Source: Methanolobus tindarius DSM 2278 | GTDB lineage: Archaea > Halobacteriota > Methanosarcinia > Methanosarcinales > Methanosarcinaceae | Length of the DNA: 64,000 nt | Assembly: GCF_000504205.1 (NCBI RefSeq) | Contig: NZ_AZAJ01000001.1 | Coordinates: 2,330,879-2,394,878, forward strand | Reading direction: 5' to 3' | Shown here: positions 42,833 through 55,018 of the stretch, piece by piece | Numbering within the stretch: position 1 is the stretch's first letter | How the letters are laid out: every line of letters starts with the position of its first letter | The notes under the pieces: generated by a model | The model's database searches: none | What the model was told of the DNA's origin: nothing | The model's input: the letters and a program-made list of their open reading frames with translations, nothing else | Made by a program: the position numbers and the translations under genes

Positions 42833-42940
42833 TCAGGTATTGACAAGTCCTGCTATTACGACTACTGCCATCAGCATGAGTGTGTACAGGAAGAACATCA
42901 GTCCTACCTTTTTGGCACTGATGATTGCATCGTTATTCAT
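42833..42940 (-). CDS. Mini membrane protein, 35 residues
   Basis: ATG 42940, preceded by GGAG eight bases upstream, opens a 35-codon frame. A polar N-terminus (MNNDAIISAKK) is followed by one hydrophobic helix (VGLMFFLYTLMLMAVVVIAG) and a four-residue tail. A longer frame to 43039 exists but lacks a binding site. The shared terminator with AIM24 supports a real transcript. The 30-residue peptide at 61802 has a similar plan and aligns without gaps over 28 residues. The function is unknown; it may be a small subunit or modulator of a membrane complex. Confidence 0.65.
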   Translation of the reverse strand: MNNDAIISAKKVGLMFFLYTLMLMAVVVIAGLVNT

Positions 42941-43107
42941 TGTTAAGCTCCAGTCACTATCAATTATAATTATAGGCTTCAAAAGTATATAATGATTATT
43001 AGTTACAACATATCTATATTTGATTGCACATTTCCACATTAATTTAGTAATTTCTACTTACGGGCTTAAAAATTCTGGCTGGCCCCATGCGGAAGATTTC
43101 ATAAACT

Positions 43108-43115
43108 TTATATAG
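43108..43115 (+). promoter_or_regulatory. TATA box preceding the candidate structured RNA
   Basis: TTTATATA (within ACTTTATATAGAG) is placed so that transcription should begin near 43138-43140, directly before the first helix of the candidate RNA. Confidence 0.5.
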
Positions 43116-43139
43116 AGAATGGTTTGAACTATATGTATC

Positions 43140-43275
43140 AGACGTGGGGGTGGTCTCATCAGGGCAGATCACCTCAATAGATTCAATCTTAAAAGGTGGT
43201 CTGCCTCCCGATCGAATACATGGAACGGTGAGATTAGGATCATAACAACATACACCCCCACATACGATACCCTTT
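43140..43275 (+). ncRNA. Candidate structured RNA with nested helices
   Basis: Three nested helices are visible. P1 is GTGGGGGTG (43144-43152) with CACCCCCAC (43253-43261), 9 bp perfect. P1b is TCTCATC (43154-43160) with GGTGAGA (43227-43233), 7 bp with one wobble. P2 is GGCAGATCACC (43163-43173) with GGTGGTCTGCC (43195-43205), 11 bp with one wobble. A TATA box at 43108 predicts a start just before P1, and CCCTTTTCC follows P1. It could be an independent small RNA or a leader of the membrane protein gene at 43376. No known class is recognised. Confidence 0.5.
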
Positions 43276-43375
43276 TCCTGTATTCTTTGTAATCTGTAAT
43301 ATTTGGTATTCGGTAAAAACAACTTCCGGATGTACTTGTAAAGAGTTATATTATTTGAATACCATTACGGGGCAG

Positions 43376-43621
43376 ATGAAATTAAAAACGCCAATGTACA
43401 TGGTAGCAGCAGGGCTCGTTATTATCTTTCTTGTTGCGGGCATATTGTCAATGTGCAATATTGCAGGAATTGACCTTACTGAAAGTGCATGTGATGCAGC
43501 AGGAAATCCAACCGGAAATCCTCATACGCTTCCATCTGTCATTTTCAATGTGGGGCTGACCGGAATGTTCATGGTGCTTATCGGAGTTGTATGGACAGTC
43601 AAGTCTTATTTCTTCGCATAA
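43376..43621 (+). CDS. Small membrane protein, 81 residues, two TM helices
   Basis: This small membrane protein has a first helix (YMVAAGLVIIFLVAGILSM), an exterior loop with two Cys and an Asn/Gly/Pro-rich stretch (CDAAGNPTGNPHTLP) and a second helix (IFNVGLTGMFMVLIGVVWTV). The start is uncertain: ATG 43376 is preferred, and a TTG at 43355 would add seven residues; neither has a good binding site. It lies ~100 bases downstream of the candidate structured RNA, which might be its leader. It converges with the next gene with no gap. Confidence 0.6.
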   Translation: MKLKTPMYMVAAGLVIIFLVAGILSMCNIAGIDLTESACDAAGNPTGNPHTLPSVIFNVGLTGMFMVLIGVVWTVKSYFFA

Positions 43622-44148: not shown

Positions 44149-45471
44149 TCATTCAAATTCATCAAACAGTTTACCGGTTTTTGGAATTGAAAATGTAAAC
44201 TTACTTCCTTTGGAAACTTCGCTTTCAAGCTTAATTGTGCCATCGTGTAGTTCTACTAATTTTTTTACAAGAGCAAGACCAAGGCCTGTACCTTTCTGGT
44301 CTTTACTTAAGGAAGAATTTAGCTGTGAGAAAGGGTCAAATATTTTTTCGTGGCATTCAGATGGAATTCCGATACCTGTATCCTCTATCGATATCTCTAT
44401 TTTATGATCAACTGATTTCCCGGTGACATCTACTGCTCCTTGCTCGGGAGTAAATTTCAGGGCATTGCTAATGAGGTTCAACATAATTTGTTTTAGCTTA
44501 CACATATCCCCCTCAAAAGTGATGTTGTTTTCTTCCTGTTTAAAATTCAGATTAATCTCTTTGTACGAGGCTATAGGATATACCATGTGTTCTATTTCTT
44601 TTAATAGTTCGTTCATATTGACCTGTTCGAGACTAAGTTCCATCTTTCCGGCTTCCACTTTAGAAATATCAAGCAAGTCATTTATAAGATTAAGCAGATG
44701 TTTGCCACTTTCTTCTATATACCCCATATAGCGCCTTTGCTCTTCATTCAATTCGCCAGTCTCTCCCCTTTCCATTGCTTCAGAAAATCCTATTATGGAA
44801 GTAAGAGGCGTTCGCAGCTCATGACTCATATTTGCAAGGAACCAGCTTTTAGTATTGTTTGCTTCCTCTGCTGCTTTCATTGCATTGACAATAGCCTTTT
44901 CTGCATTTTTGCGCTCTGCTATGTCATTGAACGTTATGAGTATCATAGGAGTTTGTTCATAAATGCTGAAGAATCCAAAGTGTTCCTTGATCTCTTTTCT
45001 CCCTCTCATCTCCATGTAAAGTATATTTCCCTCCCTGCCTTTAAAACGCAGTTCCAGCGTTTTATCTTCAGGTTTTTTAAAAAAAGCCTTAAAACGGGAC
45101 ATATATGCAGACCTGTCTTCCTCTACAATATACTTTGAAAGGGGATTACACATATTCTCACATTGTGAAAGATCGATAAGCTCGCAAAGCAACTGGTTAG
45201 CCTTTCGGATCATTCCGTTCTCATCCAGTAGTGCATAGCCAATGGGGGCCCGATGGAACAATTGGTAATAACTCTCTCTCTGGAGAACAAGTTCCTCCTG
45301 TGATCTTTTCAGTTCCTCATTCTGAAGTTCCAGTTCTATCTGGTGCACACGTAGTTCATGAAGGATTGCCTGTATGTTTTCATCAGGATTTTCTTTTACG
45401 GTTTCCTCCTTTTCCAGCTCGTTAAGTCGTGTGTGTGCTTCTTTTTTCAAATCCTCTAAGCTCTTATCCAT
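44149..45471 (-). CDS. PAS-domain sensor histidine kinase, soluble
   Basis: This 440-residue kinase has an N-terminal coiled coil (~10-65), a PAS domain (~65-190, RAPIGYALLDENGMIRKANQ) and HisKA with the phospho-acceptor His217 in FLANMSHELRTPLTS. HATPase_c follows with the N box (LMLNLISNALKFTPE), G1 (EDTGIGIP) and G2 (KGTGLGLALV). No membrane segment or receiver is present, so the signal is intracellular and the partner regulator is elsewhere. It lies 64 bases after the CheB-CheR-PAS gene on the same strand and probably works in the same pathway. Confidence 0.93.
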   Translation of the reverse strand: MDKSLEDLKKEAHTRLNELEKEETVKENPDENIQAILHELRVHQIELELQNEELKRSQEELVLQRESYYQLFHRAPIGYALLDENGMIRKANQLLCELIDLSQCENMCNPLSKYIVEEDRSAYMSRFKAFFKKPEDKTLELRFKGREGNILYMEMRGRKEIKEHFGFFSIYEQTPMILITFNDIAERKNAEKAIVNAMKAAEEANNTKSWFLANMSHELRTPLTSIIGFSEAMERGETGELNEEQRRYMGYIEESGKHLLNLINDLLDISKVEAGKMELSLEQVNMNELLKEIEHMVYPIASYKEINLNFKQEENNITFEGDMCKLKQIMLNLISNALKFTPEQGAVDVTGKSVDHKIEISIEDTGIGIPSECHEKIFDPFSQLNSSLSKDQKGTGLGLALVKKLVELHDGTIKLESEVSKGSKFTFSIPKTGKLFDEFE

Positions 45472-45535: not shown

Positions 45536-48500
45536 CTAATCTATACTATAGAATATAATTACAATTTCTCCATTGGGAAGCATGTACATATAAATTTCAT
45601 ACTTTCCGTTGGTATTTTCAACATCAAATGTATATGAGTCAATGTGAGAAGGCAATCCATTTTTCTTTACACTGAGAATCAATTCCTCTAAGGTTCCATC
45701 CTTATCCGGTAGCAATTCAAACAGTTTGTTCCCAACTACATTCTCTCGCTTAACGGAAAAGATATTTTCTGCGGCACAATTAATTTCCTTGATATCACAT
45801 TTACCGGTAGATTCACAATTGCAGACAATTGCCGGGCTTGTTATCATTTCATAAAGTACATCATACTTATTTCTTGCATTTTCAAGCTCCGATATCATAT
45901 TTGATTGTTCTGTGATATCCTGAAAAGCCCCGTAAACCCTGACGATTTTATTTTCATTTTTTTCTGCTTTTCCTATTGCTCTGACCCATTTTATCTTTCC
46001 CTTATTGGTTATGAGACGCAGCTTAAGATCAAAAGGATTCCCTTTTTCAAGGGCATTTTTAACTGCGTTTTCAATTATAGGCCTGTCATCAGGATGGTAG
46101 AAATCAATTCCATTGTGGACATCATGATCAAAATCAGGTTCTACTTCGTGTATTCTGTAAACTTCTTCAGTCCAGATTGTTTTCATTGTAGATGTATCGA
46201 TCTCCCACCCACCTACTTTAGCGATAGATGCGGCTTCTTCTTGCCACATTTCTTTCTTTTCAAGGGTACGCTGCGTTTTTTTGAGAGTGGTTATGTCTAT
46301 TACTGTAAGAACTATACCGGAATATTTGTCATTTGATATAAAGTATGGAAGAACTTTTAGGAAATACCATCTGTCATCCTTTGTGTGAACTTCATTCTCA
46401 TAACTTCTGTTGTTCTCATGTACATCCTTTATAATGGTGATTAGATCAATATCAACTACTTTATTGGCGATTCCTTCCAGTGGCCTTCCAATATCGTTGT
46501 CTACCAGGTGGAAGATCTTTTCGATCATGGTGGTATATTTACGGATCTCAAGATTCTCATCAAGGAATAATGTTCCTATTTGAGTATTTGCCATGAGATT
46601 CTCCATATCCTGATTTAGTTCAGTAAGTTCTATTATCTTAGCCTGGAACTCTGAATTTACAGTGTGCAGTTCTTCATTAACAGACTGAAGTTCTTCGTTT
46701 GTAGCCTGAAGTTCTTCGTTACTTGCAAAAAGTTCCTCGTTTGTTGCCTGAAGCTCTTCATTTGATGTTTCGAGTTCCTCTATGGTTGCCTGCAGGTTCT
46801 CGCGGGTAAACTGTAATTCCTGTTCAAGGTCTGATATACGCTGCTCAACGATCTCTTCCATATCATATTCATTTTGATCAGGGTTTTGATCCTGTACAGG
46901 AATTATATTCTCCTTCAGTATAATTGCAGCAAGAGGAGTCTGGTTATTTCGGGAAGGGAGGAGTTTTATCTCAATATCGAGTTTCTTTTTTTCTCCCTTT
47001 ATGCTTGCCTTTACATTTTTATATCTGACTTCTTCTTTGGTGTTGAATACTTTCTGAAGACCAGTGGTAATAGGTATGGACAGGTCATTTGATGCCATTC
47101 TTGAAATAGTGAATACCATTTTTCCGGAAGGGACCTTGAAATATCCTTCTGTGTCGCCTATTGTGTAGACGATCTCCATGCTTTCATTTGCTATGATGGT
47201 CACAGGAAGATATTCATCCTGTATAGTATCCATGATCCTTTCAAGCAACTTTTCATCCTGTGTTTGTTTCCATGTTCTGGTTTGCGGAACGTATTCATTT
47301 TTAGCTCTGGAAACATCCATCGTTATATTGCGGATCTTCTGGATATCAAGGGTCTTTGCCTTTCCTCTTGAACGATATATTTTCCATTTATGGTTCATAG
47401 GCTCAAAGTTATCAGACATATCACCTGTGGTTTCACTGGGTCCCAGGAATAGTATTCCACCGGGCTTTAGTGAATAATTGAAAAGTTCAAGTACTCTGGA
47501 TTGAAGCACAGGCTGGAGATATATGAGCAGGTTCCTGCAGCTTATAAGATCAATATTCGGGAAAGGAGGATCCATAAGAACATCGTGTTTTGCAAAAACT
47601 ATCATTTCCCTTATTTCTTTACTTATACGGAATTCATTATCAGTTGCAATAAAATATTTGTGGAGTCTTTCAGGATTTACGTCAGAAACTATTGCTTCAG
47701 GATAACGACCGCTGGCTGCTTTAAGAATTGCATCTTCGTCAACATCAGTTGCAAAAATCTTAACATAGATGTGTTTGCCAATCATTTCCATTGTTTCTTT
47801 CAGGATAATTGCAAGGCTGTAAGCCTCCTCACCGGTGGAGCATCCTGCCACCCAGATGCGGATCTCTTTTTCGCCGGACTTGTTAATAATGTCAATAATA
47901 GATTTCTGGGCTATGTAATCAAAAGCATCTTTGTCTCTGAAAAAATGAGTTACTCCTATAAGCAGTTCCTTGTAAAGATTTGTTATCTCCTGTGGATTGT
48001 TTTCCAGATATCCCACATAATCCCTGAATTCGGAAATATGGTTTACAACCATTCTGCGTTCTACCCTTCTGACAACCGTGTTCATCTTATAATGTGTAAA
48101 GTCAACTTTGTGTTTTTTTCTTAAAAGGGAAAAGAGCTTGCCCATGCTTTTCTGATCTGAAAGAAGTACATTCGTCTCTGCAGGGTTGCTTGCATAGGGA
48201 TGCTCAATAAAGGAGATGAGTTGCTCAGGCATTTCCCTTGTTGTCAGTACGTAGTCTACGATTCCAGTAGATATGGCACTCTTTGGCATACCGTCAAATT
48301 TAGCGGAATCTTCTCTCTGGACCATCACCATGCCACCTTTTTCCTTGATGGCTTTTATTCCCCGCATACCATCACTGCCGGTTCCTGAGAGGATTATGCC
48401 AATGGCTTTATTTCCCTGGTCTTCAGCCAGCGATTCTAAAAATATGTCAATTGGGAAATTCGGAACCCTGTGATTATCGTGCTCGCTTAAGAGTAGTTTG

Positions 48501-48796
48501 CCGTGAAAAATAGTGAGATTGTTTTTTGGAGGAATAAGATATATCTTGTTTGGTTCTACAAGCATCCCTTCTTCTGCCCTTAACACTTCCATCTTTGTCC
48601 TTTTAGATAGTAGTTCCACCATCAGGCTCTTATAATCAGGTGAAAGGTGTTGTATTATCACAAATGCCATTCCAGTATTGGAAGGCATGCTGTTGAATAC
48701 TTCTTCAATGGCTTCAAGGCCACCTGCTGATGCTCCTATGCCTACTATGTAATGGGAAGATTCAAATCCACCCTCTGTAATACCCACCGAATTCAT
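45536..48796 (-). CDS. CheB-CheR fusion protein with coiled coil and PAS domains
   Basis: This 1086-residue signalling protein joins a CheB methylesterase domain (1-~195; triad Ser23 in GASAGGLE, His50 in IIQHLSP, Asp142 in GTGSDGM) to a CheR methyltransferase (~215-485; VTHFFRDKDAF, VAGCSTGEEAYSLA). A long coiled coil of repeated ATNEEL units follows (~650-745), then three PAS-type regions to the end. No receiver or kinase domain is present. Such proteins usually modify chemoreceptors or act with PAS kinases. GGAG precedes ATG 48796. The MCP at 50414 and the kinases on both sides are possible partners. Confidence 0.92.
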   Translation of the reverse strand: MNSVGITEGGFESSHYIVGIGASAGGLEAIEEVFNSMPSNTGMAFVIIQHLSPDYKSLMVELLSKRTKMEVLRAEEGMLVEPNKIYLIPPKNNLTIFHGKLLLSEHDNHRVPNFPIDIFLESLAEDQGNKAIGIILSGTGSDGMRGIKAIKEKGGMVMVQREDSAKFDGMPKSAISTGIVDYVLTTREMPEQLISFIEHPYASNPAETNVLLSDQKSMGKLFSLLRKKHKVDFTHYKMNTVVRRVERRMVVNHISEFRDYVGYLENNPQEITNLYKELLIGVTHFFRDKDAFDYIAQKSIIDIINKSGEKEIRIWVAGCSTGEEAYSLAIILKETMEMIGKHIYVKIFATDVDEDAILKAASGRYPEAIVSDVNPERLHKYFIATDNEFRISKEIREMIVFAKHDVLMDPPFPNIDLISCRNLLIYLQPVLQSRVLELFNYSLKPGGILFLGPSETTGDMSDNFEPMNHKWKIYRSRGKAKTLDIQKIRNITMDVSRAKNEYVPQTRTWKQTQDEKLLERIMDTIQDEYLPVTIIANESMEIVYTIGDTEGYFKVPSGKMVFTISRMASNDLSIPITTGLQKVFNTKEEVRYKNVKASIKGEKKKLDIEIKLLPSRNNQTPLAAIILKENIIPVQDQNPDQNEYDMEEIVEQRISDLEQELQFTRENLQATIEELETSNEELQATNEELFASNEELQATNEELQSVNEELHTVNSEFQAKIIELTELNQDMENLMANTQIGTLFLDENLEIRKYTTMIEKIFHLVDNDIGRPLEGIANKVVDIDLITIIKDVHENNRSYENEVHTKDDRWYFLKVLPYFISNDKYSGIVLTVIDITTLKKTQRTLEKKEMWQEEAASIAKVGGWEIDTSTMKTIWTEEVYRIHEVEPDFDHDVHNGIDFYHPDDRPIIENAVKNALEKGNPFDLKLRLITNKGKIKWVRAIGKAEKNENKIVRVYGAFQDITEQSNMISELENARNKYDVLYEMITSPAIVCNCESTGKCDIKEINCAAENIFSVKRENVVGNKLFELLPDKDGTLEELILSVKKNGLPSHIDSYTFDVENTNGKYEIYMYMLPNGEIVIIFYSID

Positions 48797-49295
48797 ATTA
48801 TACTCCTGATTATTGTTGTCAGAAGTATATCTAATAATATATTAGATATTTGTCTTTTCTAACACAAGAAACACTATTAAGTGACTATTTACTCACCAAT
48901 TATGTTTTTGTTGCACACTAGTCCCAATCACATTACGATGCGATTTTATTTTATATATATTTACCTATAAATTCAAATTTTGCTGCACAATGTGAAAAAT
49001 GATTTCATATATTTATAATAATATCTTAATAACAATGTGGATAATGCATGCTACGCATTAATTCCAATTTTTTTATTAAGAAACGTAATAGAATTATTAT
49101 AATATCTTTTCTTCTTGATTATTATTTTCCAAATTTGATGAGTTGCGGCATATAATTGTCCGATAATAAATTTGTCGTTTAAATTATCTTGCTGAATCAC
49201 TTTTAATGCCTTTTCCTATTTTTACTCTGTCACAGCGTTAATCTGATATATGCGGGAACACCTAATCAGGCTGAGAAACATTAAAGGAGATAATT
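48797..49295. other. 499-base AT-rich gap with an unassigned hairpin and T-run
   Basis: No protein gene is seen. GGATAATGC (49039-49047) pairs with GCATTA (49055-49060) and TCC, followed by seven T (49068-49074), which looks like a forward-strand terminator with no gene before it; a short RNA might end there. The right part should contain the rubrerythrin promoter. Confidence 0.35.
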
Positions 49296-49787
49296 ATGAG
49301 TTCCAAAGATAACCTTAAAGCAGCATTTACCGGTGAATCAATGGCAAACAGGACATACCTGGCCTTTGCAGCAAAAGCTGATGCAGAAGGATACACTCAG
49401 GTAGCTAAACTTTTCAGGGCTGCAGCAGCTGCTGAAACAATCCATGCACTAAATCACCTCAAACGTATGGGTGGCATCGGTTCAACAGAGGATAACCTGA
49501 AAGAGGCTATCAATGGCGAAACTTATGAATTTGAGAGTATGTACCCTTCCTTTATTGAAGAAGCAGAAAAGGAAGGCGATGACAAGGCTCTCTGGAGTTT
49601 CAAGGTCGCAAACGAAGTGGAAAAAACCCACGCAGCTCTTTACGAAAAAGCCCTTAAAGAACTTGGCAGCAACGAAGAAACAGATTACTACGTTTGCAGC
49701 GTCTGCGGACATACCCACGAAGGCAAACCTGAAGATAACTGTCCTGTCTGCGGTGCACCTGCATCCAAATTTGATAAGATTGACTAA
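49296..49787 (+). CDS. rbr: Rubrerythrin
   Basis: This 163-residue non-haem di-iron peroxidase protects anaerobes from hydrogen peroxide. The ferritin-like domain holds the Glu/His ligands (GESMANRTYLAFAAKAD, AAAAETIHALNHL, EAEKEGDDKALWSF, VEKTHAALYEKAL). The C-terminal rubredoxin domain has two Cys pairs (CSVCGHTHEG and CPVCGAPASKF) for one iron. GGAGAT precedes ATG 49296, and a hairpin terminator follows at 49818. It stands alone as one unit between signalling genes. Confidence 0.95.
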   Translation: MSSKDNLKAAFTGESMANRTYLAFAAKADAEGYTQVAKLFRAAAAAETIHALNHLKRMGGIGSTEDNLKEAINGETYEFESMYPSFIEEAEKEGDDKALWSFKVANEVEKTHAALYEKALKELGSNEETDYYVCSVCGHTHEGKPEDNCPVCGAPASKFDKID

Positions 49788-53400: not shown

Positions 53401-55018
53401 AGGTGTAAACCGCACTCTTGATGCTGTTATTGGTCCTCTCAATGTTGCTGCCGATTATGTTGATTTCATATCCAGCGGTGCAATCCCTGATAGGATTACT
53501 GACAACTATAATGGTGATTTCAACACTATCAAGAACAATCTTAACCAGTGTATCGACGCCATCAATGCTCTTGTAATGGATGCCAATATGCTTGCAGAAG
53601 CAGGAGTCAATGGTGAACTTAGTACCCGTGCCGATGCATCCATGCATCAGGGTGATTATCGCAGGATTGTTGAAGGTGTCAATAATTGTCTTGATGCGGT
53701 TGTTGGCCCTGTCAATGAAACTGCAAGGGTTATCAATGCTTATGCAGATGGTGATCTTGGTACCAGGGTATCAATTGATGCAAAGGGAGATTTCAAACAG
53801 TTAAGTGATACACTTGATGGATTTGGTGATTCCTTGCAGTCTATTATAAGAGACTCATGTGATGTTCTGGAATCAATGGCCTCCAACGACCTTACAAGAA
53901 AAGTAAAAGTAAGGGGAGTCGGTGACTTTGTACAGTTGACCGATGGTGTGGAGAATTGCAGAGTATCCCTGAATGAAGTTGTTTCACTTGTGGCTTCAAA
54001 TGCAGAAAATATTTCTGCTACAGCACAGCAGATGTCCTCATCCAGCGAACAGTTAACAGCTACTGCAGAACAATTAACAACAACAGTGACTGAGATATCA
54101 AAGGGAACACAGGTTCAGTCCGGTAAGGCTGAAGAGGTTTCTCAGGCGATGGCTGACATGAGCCGCACTGTTCAGGAAGTTGCTTGCAATTCAAGCAGTG
54201 CTGCAGAAAGTGCTGTACAGTCTAACAACCTGATACAAAACCTGGGTAAGATGTCTGAGGATCTCAAGTTAAAGATGACAGGCATAAAATCCGCTGTTGG
54301 TGATTCTTCAAATGTAATCAATGAACTTGATGAAAAGTCCAAACAGATTGGGGAAATTGTCAACCTCATCACTAACATTGCAGACCAGACAAATCTGCTT
54401 GCTTTGAATGCTGCCATTGAGGCTGCAAGGGCAGGAGAACACGGAAAAGGATTTGCTGTTGTGGCTGATGAAGTTAGAAAGCTTGCTGAAGACTCAGGTA
54501 ATGCTGCCAAGCAAATTGCAGAACTCATCGGCCAGATGCAGACCGGAACCCATGAAGCAGTTTCATCCATGAAAAAGGGTGCAGAGGAAGTCGATACAGG
54601 AGCAGAGTCTCTGGATGAGTCTGTGGCTGCAATCGGTGATGTTGTTGAAGCCGGAAACACCATTGTGAGAATGGTTCAGGAAATTGCAGCGGCTGCAGAA
54701 GAACAGTCTGCTTCCATAGAGGAGGTTACAAGTTCTGTTGAAGAAGTATCTGCCATTTCAGAAGAGTCTGCAGCAGGAGCACAGGAAGCTTCCGCTTCAG
54801 TTCAGGAACAGACGGCTTCCATGCATGAGCTTGCTAAAGCCGCAGAAGGTCTTGCAAATGTTGCTTCCAACATGCAGTCTGTAGTTTCCAAGTTCCGTAT
54901 AGATGCGTCATGTACTACTGCTTCAACGAAGACAACAATAACAGAGGATTTAGATTTTGATGATTCTCCGGAAGCAAATGACATGTTTGCCTCATTCCCG
55001 GAAAATGCATTTGTCTAA
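50414..55018 (+). CDS. Methyl-accepting chemotaxis protein with giant poly-HAMP array
   Basis: This 1534-residue chemoreceptor has TM1 at ~10-30, a helical extracytoplasmic sensor (~30-295) and TM2 at ~296-318 ([18 protein letters not shown]). A long chain of HAMP-type units follows to ~1190, of which seven or eight copies are a 91-residue module ([20 protein letters not shown]..., [15 protein letters not shown]). The methyl-accepting/signalling hairpin is at ~1200-1490 with its tip [26 protein letters not shown] precedes ATG 50414. It probably couples to CheA/CheW encoded elsewhere; the CheB-CheR fusion at 45536 could adjust its methylation. Confidence 0.93.
51512..53720 (+). repeat. In-gene tandem array with exact 273-bp period (HAMP modules)
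   Basis: The GATGCTGTxxTxGGTCC-type segment recurs at 51512, 51785, 52058, 52331, 52604, 53147, 53420 and 53693. All spacings are 273 bp except 543 bp for one step, which contains a divergent double module. Copies two and three (51785 and 52058) are nearly identical over more than 100 bp, which points to recent duplication or gene conversion. Confidence 0.9.

Follow-up and report, generated by a model that had tools for sequence, protein, structure and literature searches.

Evidence for a conserved structured small RNA gene in Methanolobus

The locus and the folded element

The window analysed here, a whole stretch of 64,000 nucleotides from Methanolobus tindarius DSM 2278, carries at 43135-43275 of the plus strand an element that matches a structured small RNA gene (covariance model R2, 130.9 bits, E 5.3e-40, the sequence itself being included in R2). 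A divergent gene for a 35-aa membrane peptide (MNNDAIISAKKVGLMFF...; 42833-42940, minus strand) adjoins the RNA promoter; the peptide gene also accompanies the RNA in G017 and is found at the locus of G022 that lacks the RNA. On the 3' side lies a small membrane-protein gene (43376-43621, plus strand; MKLKTPMYMVAAG...), for which a Pfam search returned no match and which is regarded as a neighbour, not a partner, of the RNA. Farther along, a gene for a PAS histidine kinase (44149-45471) stands next to one for a 1086-aa CheB-CheR-PAS fusion protein (45536-48796, minus strand), a pair conserved 3' of the RNA in G001, G010 and G019. In 11 of the 13 loci a rubrerythrin gene (49000-49600 in the window) is located at a distance of 0.3-6.3 kb from the RNA; it is inverted in G020, and in clade A it adjoins thioredoxin reductase and thioredoxin-like genes, so that a link to oxidative stress is conceivable.

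The 141-nt stretch at 43135-43275 has a minimum free energy (MFE) of -53.9 kcal/mol as opposed to -33.5 +/- 3.8 in dinucleotide shuffles (z -5.42), with none of 200 shuffles being as low, and the interval originally delimited, 43108-43275, gives a z of -4.47. The initial annotation had described the pairing as far stronger than in the surrounding sequence; indeed, when 6386 segments of 141 nt from either strand of the 64 kb were folded, the minimum MFE was that of the one over the element. The second strongest fold (53600-53800, plus strand, z -2.45) falls within a gene for a 1534-aa methyl-accepting-chemotaxis-like protein with repeated units and is probably due to coding-sequence bias. The minus strand of the element folds with a z of -4.05, as against -5.42 for the plus strand, and the plus strand is also favoured by the homologue alignment, in which 29 G-U cells are found versus 13 A-C cells. 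Matches of the model to the minus strand were discarded as a palindromic shadow of the plus-strand RNA.

All 12 intact copies of the element share a common architecture: the long stem P1 closes the molecule, P2 leads to a three-way junction from which the hairpins P3 and P4 branch, and an A-rich bulge lies on the 3' side. Across the family P1 is composed of a UAUC/GAUA closure and a 9-10-bp GUGGGGGUGG/CCACCCCCAC helix, P2 has 7 bp, P3 has 11 bp below a variable top, and P4 has about 5 bp and a 12-nt loop. The three nested helices of 9, 7 and 11 bp first reported are all present on the plus strand of the window: P1b, in which GUGGGGGUG (43144-43152) pairs with CACCCCCAC (43253-43261); P2, in which UCUCAUC (43154-43160) pairs with GGUGAGA (43227-43233); and P3, in which 43163-43173 pairs with GGUGGUCUGCC (43195-43205). 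That description had missed the closure of the first helix (P1a), where UAUC (43136-43139) pairs with GAUA (43266-43269); the P4 hairpin (43206-43225), whose near-invariant loop reads GCUUGAAUAAAU in the family consensus and GAUCGAAUACAU in the window; and the conserved single-stranded 3' bulge from P2 to P1 (43234-43252, family consensus AACARCAU), which measures 19 nt in the window and 15-22 nt across the family.

Covariation, range and descent

Compensatory changes among relatives, which had been put forward as a check on the structure, are strong. In A4, an alignment of the 12 intact copies fitted to the structure, 93.1% of the cells are paired (83.1% in shuffles, 43-51% when slid), both members are changed in 21 of 40 pairs (10.1 in shuffles, with 0/500 shuffles as high), and the covariation score is 0.360, as compared with 0.172 for shuffled and 0.04-0.11 for slid controls. 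With the plain MAFFT alignment A2 the outcome was the same, 15 pairs being changed on both sides at a score of 0.319 versus 0.175, and an RNAalifold consensus independently predicted these helices and counted 20 compensatory pairs. In P3 (97% of cells paired, both-side changes in 8 of 11 pairs) the sequence is free to vary while pairing is kept through C-G/G-C, A-U/G-C and C-G/U-A swaps, and both-side changes also affect 5 of the 7 pairs of P2. P1b has 97% of its cells paired, with UA and GC pair swaps in G086, and P1a 86%, with one pair changed on both sides. The P4 stem covaries and is conserved in the relatives, its degenerate form in the genome of the window being the weakest of the set. 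Single-stranded parts are conserved as well: residues A89, A90, A92 and A94 of the P4 loop (A4 numbering) are invariant in the 12 sequences, and columns 119, 121 and 122 of A4 are conserved and unpaired in the bulge.

The element could be imagined to encode a small protein on one strand or the other, since a 92-aa open frame runs across it on the minus strand in the genome of the window. However, every forward and reverse frame is interrupted by stops or indels in some relatives, the indels do not come in multiples of three and the substitutions follow the base pairs. The coding constraint on the reverse strand that would have spoken against an RNA is absent, and a protein gene is thus highly improbable. 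From these sequence comparisons, we consider the element to be almost certainly a real structured RNA gene.

Homologues were found in 11 other Methanolobus genomes, one of them with a decayed copy, and in G086, a genome of another genus of the same family. BLASTN detected the copies of nine Methanolobus genomes besides that of the window, and covariance model R1 added those of G024, G015 and G086. Model R2, run on 186 genomes from the order and 238 from the class, recovered the same 13 genomes and none further, and, Methanolobus and G086 aside, the family gave no match to either model, in large searches run with stricter filters that very divergent relatives could escape. The carriers include the cultured Methanolobus vulcani, M. 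bombayensis and M. profundi as well as Methanolobus MAGs, each genome having one copy. The decayed copy of G015 (L056, 9945-10090) reaches 48 bits, is AT-rich and has lost P1 pairing, its G-rich P1 strand having become UAGGAAUUG with no matching change in the opposite strand; it is possibly an RNA pseudogene, judging from its sequence. In the copy of G086 (L055, 9946-10075), which lies upstream of a YggS-like gene, P2 is fully rewritten yet paired. The RNA occurs in one of eight species of that genus, and this copy may derive from lateral transfer or be a surviving old one. Further candidates were rejected as chance: a weak R1 match in G063 (E 0.088) that disappeared with R2, and pattern matches in bacterial MAGs and viral contigs, of which four sources were devoid of any model match and one viral contig, L120, has a likeness confined to the 22-nt P4 stretch that had served as the pattern.

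Most Methanolobus copies lie in one neighbourhood, in which an AIM24 or MscS-like gene, the RNA, a PLDc_N gene and rubrerythrin are found, and this common ancestral neighbourhood indicates vertical descent. Within Methanolobus the RNA is present in 12 of 27 genomes, including the decayed copy, and on the McrA tree this distribution needs at least six changes, three of them forced by well-supported branches. In genomes without the RNA, a search with filters off at 16 loci near rubrerythrin or MKLKTPMYM genes revealed no diverged copy. As far as genome sequences tell, the range of the RNA is narrow and its losses are repeated, and the patchy presence suggests that its role is dispensable and that it is an accessory RNA. 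Patchiness, together with the inverted repeat at the ends of the element, is also what would be expected of a non-autonomous, MITE-like mobile element with P1 as terminal inverted repeats. Against such an origin, there is a single copy in each genome, the locus is vertical with a conserved neighbourhood, internal helices covary and the promoter is conserved; moreover, in G022, which has no RNA, the promoter and flanks are missing too, and the locus does not correspond to a precise empty site. None of the strains showed several copies flanked by target-site duplications, and a mobile element seems scarcely credible.

Transcription unit and neighbouring genes

A TATA box ahead of the first helix and a pyrimidine tract after the helices, both proposed in the initial annotation, were located in the window. 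The TATA box (TTTATATA, 43107-43114, plus strand) is preceded by CATAAAC (43100-43106), a putative BRE that corresponds to the 5' part of a CACAAA/CAAAA-CTTATAT block in most relatives. A TATA-like hexamer stands at a fixed distance, 34-39 nt before GTGGGG, in all 12 homologues, compared to 5% at control upstream positions. The T tract (CCCTTTTCC, 43270-43278, plus strand), a likely archaeal terminator, is of the CTTTT type and lies 0-10 nt 3' of P1 in nearly all homologues; in G012 the tract is interrupted, and in G019 it is some 8 nt away from P1. The spacing from the TATA box places the predicted transcription start at about 43136 +/- 3, the base of P1, and with the T tract following P1 the predicted transcript would be about 140 nt long with paired ends. 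The RNA appears in this way to have a promoter and a terminator of its own.

It had been suggested at first that the element might be either a small RNA or a cis-acting leader of the gene at 43376. A 5' leader acting as riboswitch or thermosensor would agree with the six genomes of clade A in which the RNA is found about 100 nt upstream of a 43376-type gene and in the same direction. However, a conserved TATA box (TTATATTA, 43346-43353, plus strand) belongs to the downstream gene itself, being situated outside the RNA gene and about 25 nt before the ATG, and the T tract comes directly after P1. The genes that lie 3' of the RNA are also different in clade B and G086: the MKLKTPMYM gene of six genomes is replaced by another membrane protein in G017, G024 and G015, by rubrerythrin at +323 in G012 and by a YggS-like gene in G086, while the next gene is an opposite-strand kinase in G019 and tRNA genes are found in G020, neither having a co-directional gene directly after the RNA. 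Conversely, the downstream gene occurs without the RNA in G022 and G008, and the RNA without the gene in G012, G017, G024 and G020. G022, which groups beside M. vulcani on the McrA tree, is a natural deletion control: at its locus (L058, about 1350-1500) the same flanking genes are present, the RNA and its promoter are gone and the TATA box of the downstream gene is intact. Thus, the changing neighbours and the loss in G022 with the gene promoter kept argue for a free-standing RNA gene. The genomes show no constant placement of the RNA ahead of a single gene family with which it would be co-transcribed, and of the two original suggestions the small RNA is supported and the leader is very unlikely. 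At the level of sequence, these data establish the structure, the promoter position and the independence of the RNA from its neighbours.

Possible mode of action and known RNA classes

We propose that transcription would start at the base of P1, 25-28 nt after the TATA box of the RNA, and end in the U tract just past P1, so that the paired ends would form a closed rod. This rod would open to a three-way junction displaying the 12-nt P4 loop (GCUUGAAUAAAU type) and the bulge UAACARCAU. The RNA would act in trans on unlinked genes, and the P4 loop, the bulge or both would base-pair with target mRNAs, altering their translation or stability, by analogy with sRNA154 of Methanosarcina mazei. An action in trans rather than in cis is very likely, and base pairing as the main mechanism is a plausible, if tentative, proposal. 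The explanation as a whole, an independently transcribed, free-standing RNA of about 140 nt that acts in trans, likeliest by pairing with mRNAs, is on balance the one that we favour, with modest confidence.

The invariant A residues of the loop could equally be protein contacts. The rod, junction, P4 loop and bulge may together form a scaffold or decoy for a single protein, which would be sequestered or guided with no pairing to mRNAs, and 6S RNA offers a parallel for such a working principle. A long closed rod whose two ends are paired would suit this function, as would the free variation of P3 with pairing kept and the location of the invariant residues, mostly A, in loop and bulge. In the same sense, when the P4 loop and bulge were compared with the start regions of five nearby genes, their complementarity did not consistently exceed that of shuffles. 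However, the RNA has no linked partner gene, and Ro60/TROVE proteins, the partners of Y RNAs, were found in none of the 27 genomes. We regard protein binding as a possibility of somewhat lesser weight, and pairing with mRNAs is ranked slightly above it because of the sRNA154 precedent (PMC5867862). A bolder form of the protein-binding idea is unlikely: here the RNA would found a class new to archaea, a closed scaffold or decoy with a three-way junction that would be the functional counterpart of 6S or 7SK-type RNAs, gained early in Methanolobus and repeatedly lost.

To our knowledge, few archaeal sRNA families have a structure proven by covariation, and for very few is the function known. The precise predicted ends, the calibrated model, the 12 homologues, among them cultured species, and the natural losses as controls make the function of the present one directly testable. 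In agreement with the initial claim that it belongs to no known RNA class, no Rfam 15 family matched at the gathering threshold; a relaxed search gave one miRNA (E 1.3), attributable to chance. The literature searched, partial in its coverage, held no account of the Methanolobus RNA. By comparison of sequences and folds, it appears to be a new RNA family, absent from Rfam 15, within the known kind of lineage-specific archaeal sRNAs.

Several known classes were compared with it. Like archaeal H/ACA guides, it has an ACA after the CCCCC strand of P1, but it lacks a pseudouridylation pocket, P1 adjoins P2 without a break along the 5' side and unpaired residues occur solely on the 3' side, and Rfam gave no match, so this identity was rejected. 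A k-turn in P1 was ruled out by geometry. 6S RNA and Y RNA are closed rods that bind a protein, and the Methanolobus RNA resembles them in having both ends paired in a long stem and conserved internal single-stranded parts; it differs in having a three-way junction in place of a central bubble and no Rfam match, and a Y RNA was discarded in view of the missing TROVE partner in the genus.

According to its published description, sRNA154 is a nitrogen-regulated intergenic sRNA, highly conserved in Methanosarcina, whose predicted stable fold presents two loops that pair with target mRNAs and alter their translation or stability (PMC5867862). The Methanolobus RNA is likewise intergenic, comes from the same archaeal family and has a predicted fold presenting two single-stranded elements. 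The two RNAs are also about the same size. In contrast, R1 and R2 match nothing in the family beyond Methanolobus and G086, with sRNA154 compared by description. A similar role in nitrogen metabolism was rejected: nifH scores above the cut-off in 24 of 27 genomes, many nifH-bearing Methanolobus lack the RNA, and G020 has the RNA and no nifH above the cut-off. Closer in lineage, 195 sRNAs were identified by dRNA-seq in Methanolobus psychrophilus R15, nine of them conserved and cold-induced, and the RNA described here is like these in its genus, its intergenic location and the apparent possession of its own promoter (PMC5378194).
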